Positions 5,731 through 9,852 of a DNA stretch of 64,000 nucleotides are shown in pieces. Origin of the DNA: Nakamurella flavida. GTDB lineage: Bacteria; Actinomycetota; Actinomycetes; Mycobacteriales; Nakamurellaceae. The stretch spans positions 1,945,501-2,009,500 of the forward strand of contig NZ_JAUSQV010000001.1 of assembly GCF_030811475.1 (NCBI RefSeq), given 5' to 3'. The position numbers and the translations under genes were made by a program. Positions within the stretch are counted from its first letter, which is position 1. The number at the start of each line of letters is the position of its first letter. The notes below the pieces were generated by a model. It did no database searches. It saw nothing but the letters and a program-made list of their open reading frames with translations, and was not told the DNA's origin.

Positions 5731-6642
5731 TCAGCGCTGGTTGAGGGGCAGGGCGATGTCGGTGACGGCCCGCGGGAAGGAACCCAGCGAGGAGGCCACC
5801 CCGGAGAGGACGTCGACTTCGTACAGCTTGTACTTCCCGTTGGTGCCGATGGTGGCGTACGCGGTGTTCTTCACCGTGCGATCGCCGCTGAGGGTGGACA
5901 GGATGTCCATCCCGGCATCGAGATCCGCGGCCACGCCCAGCTTTCCGGTCGCCACCAGGGTCCCGGCGTTCGCCGGGGACTGCAGGACGACCTGGTCGGC
6001 GACGGTGTCGAGATCGAACAGGGTGGTGGCGGTGTCCGGGTTCAGGTCGTTGTTCGTGTACGCCGCCGCGCTGACGCCGGACGCCGGGGCGGCCAGGTTG
6101 GTCAGCGGGGTGTCCACGACGGTGGCGCCACCGGGCGCGTCACCCGAGGCGAACGGGTGGCGCAGGTTCTGGCCCGTGTCGCTGATGACCCGCAGCGCGT
6201 TCGCCGCCGGGTTGAAGTCCACGCCGAACGCCTTGCCGGACAACGGCACCTGGATCTGCCCGATCCGGCCGGCGATCGCCCGATCGGACAGCAGGTAGAT
6301 GCCGCCGTTGTTGCCGACGCCGTAGAGCTTGCCGTTCTGCACGCGGTGATCGATGCCGATGAGGAAGTCGTCGCCACCGAGCCCGGTGATGACGATCGGC
6401 GCCGAGGCCGCGCCGGGGTTCCTCACCGCGAAGGTCACCAGCGCCTTGCCGCCGTTGGTCAGGCCGACCGCGGTGATCCCGCCGGTCTTCCCGGCCGACA
6501 CCGATGCGACGCCGAGATCGACGGACACCGCCGGCGCCACGGCGGTCCGCGCCGAGGCAGCGGCTCCCGCCGGCAGGGCCAGGCCCACGGCGACGAACAC
6601 CGCGACGGCCGCGGTGGTGGTTCCCAGGGTGCGCTTGCGCAT
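5731..6642 (-). CDS. Secreted DUF4394-like protein, probable target of the adjacent ECF sigma factor
   Basis: The ATG at 6642 follows AAAGGA with good spacing and gives 303 aa. Residues 1-30 form a signal peptide (MRKRTLGTTTAAVAVFVAVG, then ALPAGAAASA). The mature protein has repeated beta-strand/GG blocks such as GLGGDDFLIGIDHR, NGKLYGVG, NGGIYLLSD and the FNPAANALRVIS segment, which characterise DUF4394, a domain of unknown biochemical role predicted to fold like a beta-propeller. It is exported and has no lipobox or anchor. Its promoter region carries the same motif as the divergently transcribed ECF sigma gene, which makes it a likely regulon member. Confidence 0.85.
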   Translation of the reverse strand: MRKRTLGTTTAAVAVFVAVGLALPAGAAASARTAVAPAVSVDLGVASVSAGKTGGITAVGLTNGGKALVTFAVRNPGAASAPIVITGLGGDDFLIGIDHRVQNGKLYGVGNNGGIYLLSDRAIAGRIGQIQVPLSGKAFGVDFNPAANALRVISDTGQNLRHPFASGDAPGGATVVDTPLTNLAAPASGVSAAAYTNNDLNPDTATTLFDLDTVADQVVLQSPANAGTLVATGKLGVAADLDAGMDILSTLSGDRTVKNTAYATIGTNGKYKLYEVDVLSGVASSLGSFPRAVTDIALPLNQR

Positions 6643-6714
6643 GACGCGTCCTTTCGTGAGGTCACGCCCCGACCGGTTGGGCCCGAGCGCGTCCGCCGAG
6701 CGGCGGTGACGGTC

Positions 6715-6743
6715 CATACGCAGCCGCCACTGCCCGTGTTCAG
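6715..6743 (-). promoter_or_regulatory. ECF-type promoter for the DUF4394-like gene
   Basis: Read on the minus strand, GCTGAAC (-35, CTGAAC at 6743-6738) is followed after 14 nt by CTGCGTATG (6723-6715), placing TGAAC and CGTAT 17 nt apart. The same words with the same spacing lie in front of the sigma gene at 6981-7009. TGAAC-N17-CGT is close to the known SigL-type ECF pattern. Confidence 0.7.
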
Positions 6744-6980
6744 CCGTGGCGGAAAACGTTCGACGGACGGGGGCGGACGGACCCGCCGACGCTGCCCGGC
6801 CGGCCACCCGACACCGCCCGGCTTGGCCCCGTGCGCCCACCGGGTTCCGACTCCGACCCGTCCGTGGTCGACCCGGCGCCGGATCACCGGCGAGCCCGAC
6901 CCGACCGAGGGTCGTGGCCCGTCTCCCCACGCCGGGATCAGCACGCCACGGGCAGGCCCCCGGGCCCGATCCGGGAATCG

Positions 6981-7009
6981 CTGAACGCGACCCACCGGGG
7001 CTGCGTATG
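6981..7009 (+). promoter_or_regulatory. ECF-type autoregulatory promoter for the sigma/anti-sigma operon
   Basis: CTGAAC at 6981-6986, 14 nt, then CTGCGTATG at 7001-7009 repeat the motif found on the other strand at 6743-6715. A start near 7014 would leave a leader of about 20 nt containing the GAGGTGG ribosome site of the sigma gene. The duplicated motif suggests that the sigma factor activates its own operon and its neighbour. Confidence 0.7.
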
Positions 7010-7034
7010 CACCCCCGAGGGAGGTGGGACGTCC

Positions 7035-7598
7035 ATGCCGGCACTGACACGACTGCGGAGCGCGCGGCCCCCCGGGCTCAGGGACGAGGCCGCGGTCCAG
7101 GCGGCCTACACCGCCCACGGGGCCGAGCTGTACCGCTTCGCGCTCCGGGCGCTCGGCGATCCGGGCCTGGCCCAGGACGCCGTCCAGGAGACCTTCCTGC
7201 GTGCCTGGCGGGCCGCCGACCGGTTCGATCCCGAGCTGGCCAGCCTGCGGGTCTGGTTGTTCGCCATCGTCCGCAACGTCGTCATCGACCTGGCCCGCCG
7301 CCGGTCCGCCGCCTCCTTCGCGCACGTCCCCGGCGGCGGCGACGAGGACATCGTGGCCGCCCTGGACCCCACCCCGGACGACACGGACGCCGTGGTGAAC
7401 CGATGGCTCGTCGAGGAGGCGCTCGGCCGTATCAGCGCCGAACACCGGCATGTCATCGTGCAGACACACCTGCGCGGTCGGCCGTACGACGAGGTCGCCG
7501 CGGAGAGCGGAGTACCGACGGGAACGATGCGCAGCCGGGCGTTCTACGCCCTCAAGGCCCTTCGGGTCGCCATGGACGAGATGGGGGTGACGTTGTGA
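7035..7598 (+). CDS. ECF RNA polymerase sigma factor
   Basis: The ATG at 7035 follows GAGGTGGGA and gives 187 aa. Region 2 spans about residues 20-90 (AELYRFALRALGDPGLAQDAVQ and the RVWLFAIVRNVVIDLARRR -10-reading helix). Region 4 spans about 125-180 (GRISAEHRHVIVQTHLRGRPYDEVAAESG followed by TGTMRSRAFYALKALR). There is no region 1.1 or 3, as expected for ECF factors. The stop overlaps the anti-sigma start by 3 bp (GTGA). The paired promoter motif upstream suggests positive autoregulation and control of the DUF4394-like gene. Promoter specificity resembles the SigL-type TGAAC/CGT class, but subgroup assignment needs a phylogeny. Confidence 0.93.
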   Translation: MPALTRLRSARPPGLRDEAAVQAAYTAHGAELYRFALRALGDPGLAQDAVQETFLRAWRAADRFDPELASLRVWLFAIVRNVVIDLARRRSAASFAHVPGGGDEDIVAALDPTPDDTDAVVNRWLVEEALGRISAEHRHVIVQTHLRGRPYDEVAAESGVPTGTMRSRAFYALKALRVAMDEMGVTL

Positions 7599-8281
7599 AC
7601 ACGGCGAGCACCGCGGACTCCGCGGACCACCGCGCGCTCCGCGAGATGCTCGGCGCCTTCGCGCTGGGCCGGCTCGACGACCGCGAACGGACCGCTGTGC
7701 AGGCGCACCTCGACGGCTGCGCGGACTGCCGCGCCGAGCTCGACGAGATCGCCCCGGTCGTCGCGGCCCTGGCCGGCCTGGACGCGGACCGCGTCCACGC
7801 TCCGGCCGCTCCCCCGCCGGAGCTCGGGGAGAACATCCTGGCCTCGGTGCGCACCGCCACCCGGGAGCGCAACCGCAGCCGCTGGGTCCGGCGGGCCGGT
7901 GGCGGCGCGCTGATCGCGGCGGCCCTGGTCGGCGTGTTCGTGCTCGGCGTCAACGTGCGCCCCGTCGTTCCCGCGGCACCCCCGGTCATCGCCCTCCAGC
8001 TGCAGGACGTGGCCTCCGGGGTGCAGGCCGACGCGGGCCTCGTCCGGCACACCTGGGGCACCGAGCTCAAGCTCCAGGCCAGCGGCCTGGCCGCCGGCGG
8101 CGCGTACACCGTCACCTTCGTCCGCGAGGACGGCGGGACCGTCCCCGGCGGGACGTTCCTCGGCACCGGCACGGCCACCCTGACCTGCAGCATGAACGGG
8201 GCGCTGCCGCTGGACGACACGGCCGAGGTGCAGATCACCGACGCGGCGGGAGTGGTGGTGATGGACGCGGTCGTGGCCTGA
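7595..8281 (+). CDS. Membrane anti-sigma factor with zinc-binding ZAS motif
   Basis: The GTG at 7595 overlaps the sigma stop as GTGA. The 228-aa product has an N-terminal zf-HC2/ZAS domain with His38-x3-Cys42-x2-Cys45 (HLDGCADC), a basic stop-transfer region, one membrane helix at about 103-122 and an extracytoplasmic domain of about 105 residues with RskA/RslA-like strands (GTELKLQASGLAAGGAYTV). It should hold the ECF sigma at the membrane and release it on an external or redox signal. The zinc ligands are intact, so thiol sensing is possible. No cognate protease gene lies nearby. Confidence 0.9.
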   Translation: MNTASTADSADHRALREMLGAFALGRLDDRERTAVQAHLDGCADCRAELDEIAPVVAALAGLDADRVHAPAAPPPELGENILASVRTATRERNRSRWVRRAGGGALIAAALVGVFVLGVNVRPVVPAAPPVIALQLQDVASGVQADAGLVRHTWGTELKLQASGLAAGGAYTVTFVREDGGTVPGGTFLGTGTATLTCSMNGALPLDDTAEVQITDAAGVVVMDAVVA

Positions 8282-8322: not shown

Positions 8323-9852
8323 GTGCCCACCACCAGAGCGCCGGGTTCCGGCGAGCAGCCCCTCGACCCGGAGTTCCTGGCCCTGCCGCTCGCTGCGCTG
8401 GCCGACGCCGCGTTGACCACCGCGCTGGAACTCGGCGCCAGCCACGCCGACCTCCGCGCCCAGCGACTGCGGTCCGGTTCGCTGTCGATCCGCGACACCG
8501 CACTCGAGTCGTCCACCGATGGAGTCGAGACCGGTTATGCCGTCAGGGTTCTCGTCGATGGCACGTGGGGTTTCGCCGCCGCGGTGGTACCGACCCCGGA
8601 GGCCGCGGCGGCCACCGCGCGCCGGGCCGTCGAGGTCGCCCGCGCCCTGCACGGGGTCGCCGGCGAGCGGGTGGAGCGGGCCGACGAGCCGGTGCACGCC
8701 GACCAGGTGTGGGTGAGCCGGTACGAGGTCGACCCGTTCGACGTCCCCGTGCAGGACCGCATCGCCCTGCTGCTGGACCGCTCCGAACGCCTGCTCGCCG
8801 CCGACGGGGTCGCGCACACCGCCGTCGCGGTGTCCCACGTGAAGGAGAACACCTTCTACGCCGACACCGCCGGGACGACCACCACCCAGCAGCGCGTCCG
8901 CATCGAGCCCGCGCTGACCGCCGTCACCGTCGACGTGGCCACCGGCGCCTTCGAGGACATGAGCACGCTGGCCCCGCCGGCCGGGCGCGGCTGGGAGTAC
9001 CTCGTCGACGGCTGGGACTTCGACGCCGAGATCGCTTCCCTGCCGGTGCATCTGGCCGAGAAGGTGAAGGCGCCGTCGATCACCGCCGGCCGCTACGACC
9101 TGGTCGTCGATCCCACCAATCTCTGGCTGACCATCCACGAGTCCATCGGGCACGCCACCGAGTACGACCGGGCCATCGGCTACGAGGCCGCCTACGCCGG
9201 CACCTCGTTCGCCACCCCCGACCAGCTCGGGACCCTCCGGTACGGCTCCCCGCTGATGACCGTCACCGGTGACCGCACCGTCGACCACGGCCTGGCCACC
9301 GTCGGTTTCGACGACGACGGGGTCGCCGGGCAGCGGTGGGACCTGATCACCGACGGCGTGCTCACCGGGTACCAGCTCGACCGGGTCTTCGCCCGCCGGC
9401 TCGGCCTGGACCGGTCGAACGGCTGCGCGTTCGCCGACTCCCCGTCGTCGATCCCGTTGCAGCGCATGGCCAACGTCAGCCTGCAACCCGACCCCGCCGG
9501 TGGCAGCACCGCGGATCTCATCGCCGGCGTCGACGACGGCATCTACGTGGTGGGCGACAAGTCGTGGTCCATCGACATGCAGCGCTACAACTTCCAGTTC
9601 ACCGGGCAGCGTTTCTACCGGATCCGGAACGGCGAGCTGGCCGGTCAGGTGCGCGACGTCGCCTACCAGGCCACCACCACCGACTTCTGGGGGGCGATGG
9701 ACGCCGTGGGCGGGCCCTCGACGTATCTCCTGGCCGGCGTCTTCACCTGCGGCAAGGGCCAGCCCGGTCAGACCGCGCCCGTCTCGCACGGCACCCCCAG
9801 CGCACGGTTCCGCGCCGTGTCCATCCTCAACACCGAACAGGAGGGCCGATGA
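8323..9852 (+). CDS. tldD: TldD-family metalloprotease subunit
   Basis: The 509-aa product carries the zinc motif HESIGH (His272, Glu273, His277), the HExxxH signature of TldD. It also has the family C-terminal blocks TADLIAGVDDGIYVVGDKS and FQFTGQRFYRIRNGEL. TldD pairs with TldE/PmbA to form a cytoplasmic hetero-protease that degrades unstructured peptides and trims some ribosomal peptide natural products and CcdA-type antitoxins. The GTG start at 8323 is supported by the TAGGGT box 7 nt upstream. tldE begins in the last codon of this gene (ATGA overlap). No RiPP precursor or modification enzyme is seen nearby, so a housekeeping role is the simplest reading. Confidence 0.93.
   Translation: MPTTRAPGSGEQPLDPEFLALPLAALADAALTTALELGASHADLRAQRLRSGSLSIRDTALESSTDGVETGYAVRVLVDGTWGFAAAVVPTPEAAAATARRAVEVARALHGVAGERVERADEPVHADQVWVSRYEVDPFDVPVQDRIALLLDRSERLLAADGVAHTAVAVSHVKENTFYADTAGTTTTQQRVRIEPALTAVTVDVATGAFEDMSTLAPPAGRGWEYLVDGWDFDAEIASLPVHLAEKVKAPSITAGRYDLVVDPTNLWLTIHESIGHATEYDRAIGYEAAYAGTSFATPDQLGTLRYGSPLMTVTGDRTVDHGLATVGFDDDGVAGQRWDLITDGVLTGYQLDRVFARRLGLDRSNGCAFADSPSSIPLQRMANVSLQPDPAGGSTADLIAGVDDGIYVVGDKSWSIDMQRYNFQFTGQRFYRIRNGELAGQVRDVAYQATTTDFWGAMDAVGGPSTYLLAGVFTCGKGQPGQTAPVSHGTPSARFRAVSILNTEQEGR

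Follow-up and report, generated by a model that had tools for sequence, protein, structure and literature searches.

The M. tuberculosis sigma factor SigL uses a TGAAC-type -35 element. As set out in the accessible part of PMC6372665, its -10 element reads TGN(C/A)AG after CG, and residues His54 and Asp60 contribute specificity for T at -12 and G at -11. Its targets are given as cell-wall and polyketide genes in the accessible part of PMC2877774. An AAC -35 element, a CGT -10 element, a co-transcribed anti-sigma factor and autoregulation are listed as hallmarks of the first ECF sigma factors studied (PMC8103513, accessible part), and the anti-sigma factor RskA is described in the accessible part of PMC7406223 as not relying on a zinc motif. 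The locus described here appears to share the hallmarks of general autoregulated ECF switches and differs from them in its recurrent predicted secreted targets, DUF4394 and CHRD-domain proteins.

The window analyzed is a stretch of 64,000 nucleotides from Nakamurella flavida. An ECF sigma factor of 187 aa is encoded at positions 7035-7598 on the plus strand, with Pfam domains Sigma70_r2 at residues 25-91 (3.4e-20) and Sigma70_r4 at residues 129-177 (7.6e-9) and no other domain above the cut-off. It was assigned to the ECF (group IV) sigma factors on the presence of regions 2 and 4 alone with a short linker, an AAC -35 and a CGT -10 upstream of its own gene, and an anti-sigma factor encoded alongside in an overlapping reading frame with a zf-HC2 domain and one predicted helix. 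The anti-sigma gene (228 aa, 7595-8281, plus strand) has a GTG start that overlaps the sigma stop (GTGA). Its product matches zf-HC2 at 3.7e-10 and carries one transmembrane helix predicted from hydropathy, with ∼108 aa past the helix; its sequence HLDGCADC conforms to the HxxxCxxC of zinc-associated anti-sigma (ZAS) factors. Just downstream of the anti-sigma gene, a TldD/PmbA-type metallopeptidase gene was observed at 8323-9852, with no exact TGAAC-N17-CGTA in front of it. Divergent from the sigma operon is a gene for a DUF4394 protein of 303 aa (5731-6642, minus strand), which matches PF14339 at 9.7e-64, its score of 215.3 bits being above the gathering cut-off of 29.6, and which has, by eye, a signal-peptide-like N-terminus.

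The closest solved protein to the window sigma factor is M. tuberculosis SigL (2.6e-35), followed by SigE (1e-16) and SigK (7.1e-13), and the sole good PDB match of the anti-sigma factor is RslA, chain 3hug_B (1.1e-6). The locus thus resembles SigL-RslA, which supplies the best PDB matches for both window proteins, in that a sigma factor and a membrane anti-sigma factor with HxxxCxxC are encoded together; it differs in that SigL is directed to cell-wall and polyketide genes, whereas DUF4394 and CHRD are the recurrent predicted targets here. SigK-RskA likewise combines an ECF sigma factor with a membrane anti-sigma factor, but the SigK match is far weaker than that of SigL, and the window anti-sigma factor has a zinc motif, on which RskA does not rely.

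The divergent gap spans 6643-7034 and has the length of 392 bp first assigned to it. As the preliminary description had claimed, it contains one exact copy of GCTGAAC-N14-CTGCGTATG on each strand, before the ECF sigma gene and before the DUF4394 gene. The genome search proposed there, run over the 4.32-Mb single-contig Nakamurella flavida genome, returned exactly two matches, both in the gap, the next-best match having two mismatches. The predicted promoter of the sigma/anti-sigma operon is at 6980-7009 on the plus strand (TGAAC 6982-6986, 17-nt spacer, CGTA 7004-7007), with 27 nt from the end of CGTA to the start codon. The predicted promoter of the DUF4394 gene is at 6715-6744 on the minus strand (TGAAC 6742-6738, 17-nt spacer, CGTA 6720-6717), 74 nt before the start codon. 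The two sites were originally said to face each other, which is wrong: each is directed outward to its own gene. The 16 identical bases reported are present in both sites, but just nine, TGAAC and CGTA, are conserved in relatives; GC-, CTG and -TG show no conservation there. Chance agreement had been called improbable. Over the window, four matches with at most three mismatches were observed against 0.30 expected. A shared opposite-strand dyad as good as this one (18 matched bases) arose in 3 of 400 first-order Markov sequences of the 392-bp gap, which by this generous test makes the pair on its own a ∼1% event, judged in hindsight. Conservation is stronger evidence than the motif pair itself.

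DUF4394 was found in 37 of 394 sampled genomes. Its loci were compiled from 31 stretches outside the genus and 80 named loci (the best 80 of 551 relatives) among 114 distinct loci, with one duplicate (L099, on the same contig as L034) dropped. T[GC]AAC-N17-[CG]GTA was located upstream of DUF4394 at 12 of the 14 loci with an adjacent module-type sigma gene, that is, one related to the window sigma, against 7 of the 100 others (Fisher 7e-10); base shuffling predicts 0.3 of 114 loci. The two sigma-adjacent loci without this motif, from Quadrisphaera and a close metagenome bin, have CGAAC-N17-CGTA at the same place. A sigma-side site is present at 7 of 10 divergent DUF4394-sigma loci, and a scan of the opposite strand of all 114 upstream regions found the motif in exactly these seven. 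At tandem loci the site precedes DUF4394 in 4/4 and sigma in 0/4, which is what transcription of the whole tandem operon from the DUF4394 promoter would predict. Spacing, orientation and proximity to the start codon are kept in relatives, which supports the original reading of TGAAC/CGT with a 17-nt spacer as a putative ECF promoter, and the conservation upstream of orthologues that had been suggested as a check was found both in Nakamurella and in other families. Neither motif nor adjacent sigma gene occurs at 93 of the 114 loci, and most hosts must therefore control DUF4394 by other means. A single DUF4394 promoter common to all Actinomycetes was rejected: G+C-rich dyads are all that the 26 upstream regions other than the motif-like ones have in common. 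TGAAC-N17-CGTA (with a one-base shift) ranks first in the dyad count on 8 motif-like regions (6/8), a count that is not independent, as these regions were hand-picked by motif or sigma neighbor.

Within Nakamurella, DUF4394 is present in 4 of 17 genomes and a sigma gene at least 63% identical to the window sigma in 5 (the home genome, G000, and G002, G004, G008 and G016). G004 and G008 keep the divergent DUF4394/sigma layout with TGAAC-N17-CGTA on both sides. The two genes of G016 are 0.93 Mb (DUF4394) and 3.83 Mb (sigma) along one contig, and the motif precedes both. Downstream of the sigma operon, G002 and G016 have genes for a secreted CHRD-domain protein (PF07452) and a sortase (PF04203), and a second motif precedes the CHRD gene, with N16 in G002 and N17 in G016. 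G004 has an unlinked CHRD gene with the motif, then a sortase gene (PF04203, 4.8e-21). These gene pairs are at L036:6068-7539 and L037:6131-7698, beside the sigma operon, and on the minus strand of L184, unlinked. At its C-terminus the Nakamurella CHRD protein has a hydrophobic stretch followed by a basic tail, which may be a sorting signal. A search of the home genome for a CHRD gene found none.

Exact TGAAC-N17-CGTA sites number 8, 6, 3, 3 and 6 in G000, G004, G008, G002 and G016, against 0, 1, 2, 2 and 1 for the motif read backward as a control; 3, 4, 2, 1 and 3 sites, in the same order, precede the sigma operon, DUF4394, CHRD or a secreted 312-aa propeller-like protein. The gene for the latter in the home genome (G000:C1:468634-469569, minus strand, outside the window; L041:527-1465) has a TGAAC-N17-CGTATG promoter and is probably the third target of the window sigma there. 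Its product has a weak SMP-30/gluconolactonase match (E 1.4e-5, under the cut-off) and a 74% identical orthologue in G004, whose gene is likewise behind the motif. The remaining 5 of the 8 home-genome sites are not before recognizable targets. When the six sites outside the gap were considered as target promoters, just that at 469605 preceded a secreted gene and was conserved (in G004). The site at 467417 was rejected because it points against the reading frames on either side, the sites at 608920 and 1174796 because they cut across long opposite-strand reading frames, and those at 167221 and 2548523 as having no clear gene. Taken over the genus, the motif precedes 9/9 candidate targets in sigma-bearing genomes (one with N16; the G000 row of the 312-aa protein, found through its motif, is not independent) against 0/5 homologues in sigma-less genomes (Fisher 5e-4), these being CHRD genes in G007, G012 and G013 (the first two weak matches) and genes for the 312-aa protein in G005 and G013. 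The absence of the motif from sigma-less homologues and its recurrence before other secreted genes further support the reading of the sites as ECF promoters.

Seven unlinked DUF4394 loci bearing the motif belong to six genomes, G016 and five others, and all six have a module-clade sigma gene elsewhere. Occurrence of this clade in trans was scored in 21 genomes with an E cut-off of 1e-25, comparing the five unlinked-motif genomes and G131, which has an AGAAC variant, with 15 motif-less genomes. A module-clade sigma was found in 6/6 motif genomes (counting the AGAAC variant) vs 1/15 motif-less genomes (Fisher 1.3e-4), and six of the 15 gave no sigma match whatever at this cut-off. The one motif-less genome with a clade sigma is G271, in which the motif precedes the sigma gene but not DUF4394. 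In G131 the AGAAC variant occurs at both the sigma promoter (L266:4219) and the distant DUF4394 promoter (L077), which looks like a joint change of the -35 at the two promoters; TGAAC is kept at the CHRD promoter of this genome. At six clade-sigma loci of unlinked-DUF4394 genomes, the gene divergent to sigma is in three cases a secreted CHRD-domain gene with TGAAC-N17-CGTA (G410, Glaciihabitans; G253; G131), at L261:3619-4392, L262:3061-3768 (minus strand) and L266:3314-4120 (minus strand). The gene divergent to sigma can thus be either DUF4394 or CHRD. No exact N17 site was found before a gene at the clade-sigma loci of G411, G412 and G150 (L263, L264, L265). G150 has two DUF4394 paralogues (contig C1, ∼5.70-5.71 Mb and 6.37-6.39 Mb), each within ∼21 kb of one of two closely related clade-sigma genes, perhaps a duplicated module.

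The relation to SigL was resolved with a tree in which 16 module sigmas split from 13 SigL-clade proteins (SigL and 12 Nakamurella sigmas) at 100/100, leaving out seven distant or doubtful rows (L027, L028, L029, L092, L093, L100, L120); the split was also recovered with 53 rows. By this analysis the window sigma is in the sister clade of M. tuberculosis SigL. Against the NCBIfam model PRK09645 (NF007227), which we take to represent SigL, it scores 163.7 bits, under the cut-off of 202. In all 16 module sigmas Ala or Ser stands in place of SigL His54 and Pro in place of Asp60; the window sigma has Ala and Pro. SigL orthology was therefore rejected on the model score, the separate clade, the lack of His54/Asp60 and the lack of a CGTG -10. 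The promoter consensus was taken from 41 module sites that were hand-picked on TGAAC and CGTA, with a few variants included, and each checked in sequence. The -10 is always CGTA or GGTA. The base after TGAAC, which was not used for selection, is G or A in 41/41, and a C-(A/C)-C block follows CGTA at +3 to +5, with A or C at +4 in 41/41 and the flanking C in 31/41 and 33/41. The base after CGT is thus A in the module clade and G in SigL, and the changed residues at the His54/Asp60 positions may account for this difference.

The window sites may instead be promoters read by another ECF sigma factor, for example one of the SigL clade, which is improbable. SigL-clade sigmas are present in 12/17 Nakamurella genomes in the tree, and the home genome has a candidate of its own outside the tree (G000:C1:1665823-1666311, 40% identical). 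A [TC]GAAC-N17-CGT site was located near the presumed start, which may differ from the true start, of 8 of the 12 genes, with no site at the other 4, and two of these sites end in CGTA (L025, L030). However, five of the eight end in CGTG (the last in CGTT) and five have C after AAC, with the full TGAACC-N17-CGTG in three, a pattern distinct from that of the 41 module sites, and the motif before DUF4394 tracks the module clade rather than the SigL clade. It is still less probable that a DNA-binding regulator uses the pair as a two-site operator. Identical words, inverted 265 bp apart in one intergenic region, would suit such an operator, but tandem operons carry one copy, and single gene-oriented copies, with a 17-nt gap in all but one (N16), are found at unlinked CHRD, propeller-like and DUF4394 genes. 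The 3 in 400 Markov sequences would lend some credit to a chance resemblance within G+C-rich intergenic DNA, but this reading is contradicted by the conservation of the motif in several families and by its occurrence together with the sigma clade and can be given almost no weight.

The locus is therefore very probably an ECF sigma/anti-sigma switch that regulates itself and has a small regulon of secreted proteins; both sites are predicted promoters of the sigma factor encoded at 7035-7598. The motif, its spacing and conservation, its co-occurrence with the sigma clade, that clade and the anti-sigma domain can be read from the sequences; we infer that the window sigma reads both sites, that a feedback loop results and that the DUF4394 product is secreted. 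In the proposed mechanism the membrane anti-sigma factor would hold sigma inactive until an envelope signal released it. The freed sigma would bind TGAAC-N17-CGTA and transcribe its own operon, with positive feedback, together with the divergent DUF4394 gene, whose product would be exported, probably as a beta-propeller. In the home genome it would probably also transcribe the gene of the 312-aa protein, and in relatives the same clade would control secreted CHRD-domain proteins, with a sortase gene in three Nakamurella. DUF4394 is best read as a recurrent target of the clade sigma. The autoregulatory loop and direct DUF4394 target of the preliminary description gain support from a motif that tracks one sigma clade, also in genomes where the DUF4394 and sigma genes lie apart, and the context proposed there for DUF4394 is widened by CHRD proteins and a second propeller-like secreted protein as further predicted targets.

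The anti-sigma layout of HxxxCxxC plus a helix was found at 11 of 19 module loci scanned and was missing at eight (L109, L110, L128, L151, L156, L261, L262, L266), L151 being cut near the sigma gene by the contig end. Zinc-based sensing, unlike the promoter, may therefore not be shared throughout the clade. The other seven loci belong to one sub-lineage of the sigma clade, in which the type of anti-sigma factor may have been swapped while the promoter stayed.

The switch itself is of an ordinary kind, with a conserved secreted regulon that was not found in the literature searched and a probable change of -10 specificity. In that literature, which covered few subscription papers, no mention was found of DUF4394 or PF14339, nor of CHRD together with sigma factors; the NAR 2021 ECF reclassification, which lay outside it, may already assign the clade a group number and a predicted promoter. 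On balance, the comparisons lean towards an undescribed ECF clade, sister to SigL and spread over several actinobacterial families, in which the -10 changed from CGTG to CGTA along with base-reading residues and which would direct a compact envelope regulon made up of secreted DUF4394 propellers, CHRD proteins and a partner sortase in Nakamurella. The occurrence of either DUF4394 or CHRD divergent to sigma in different lineages suggests that both domains of unknown function act in one cell-surface process. DUF4394 and bacterial CHRD come under one predicted regulator and are both predicted to lie outside the cell, so that their role may be approached through what releases sigma. Sister ECF clades with -10 boxes one base apart and changes in the residues with which SigL reads them also offer a clean test of the sigma-promoter code.

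A sequence search for a solved relative of DUF4394 found none at E 1. An AlphaFold2 model of the window protein from a 30-row alignment has a mean pLDDT of 83.1, is low solely at residues 1-53 and is nearly all beta. Among the best Foldseek and VIA-align matches are the beta-propellers of LRP6 YWTD domains, human apyrase and a glutaminyl cyclase. Foldseek gave E 8e-9, but with query TM-scores mostly of 0.3-0.5, and VIA Z reached 16.9. The model suggests that DUF4394 likely folds as a beta-propeller.
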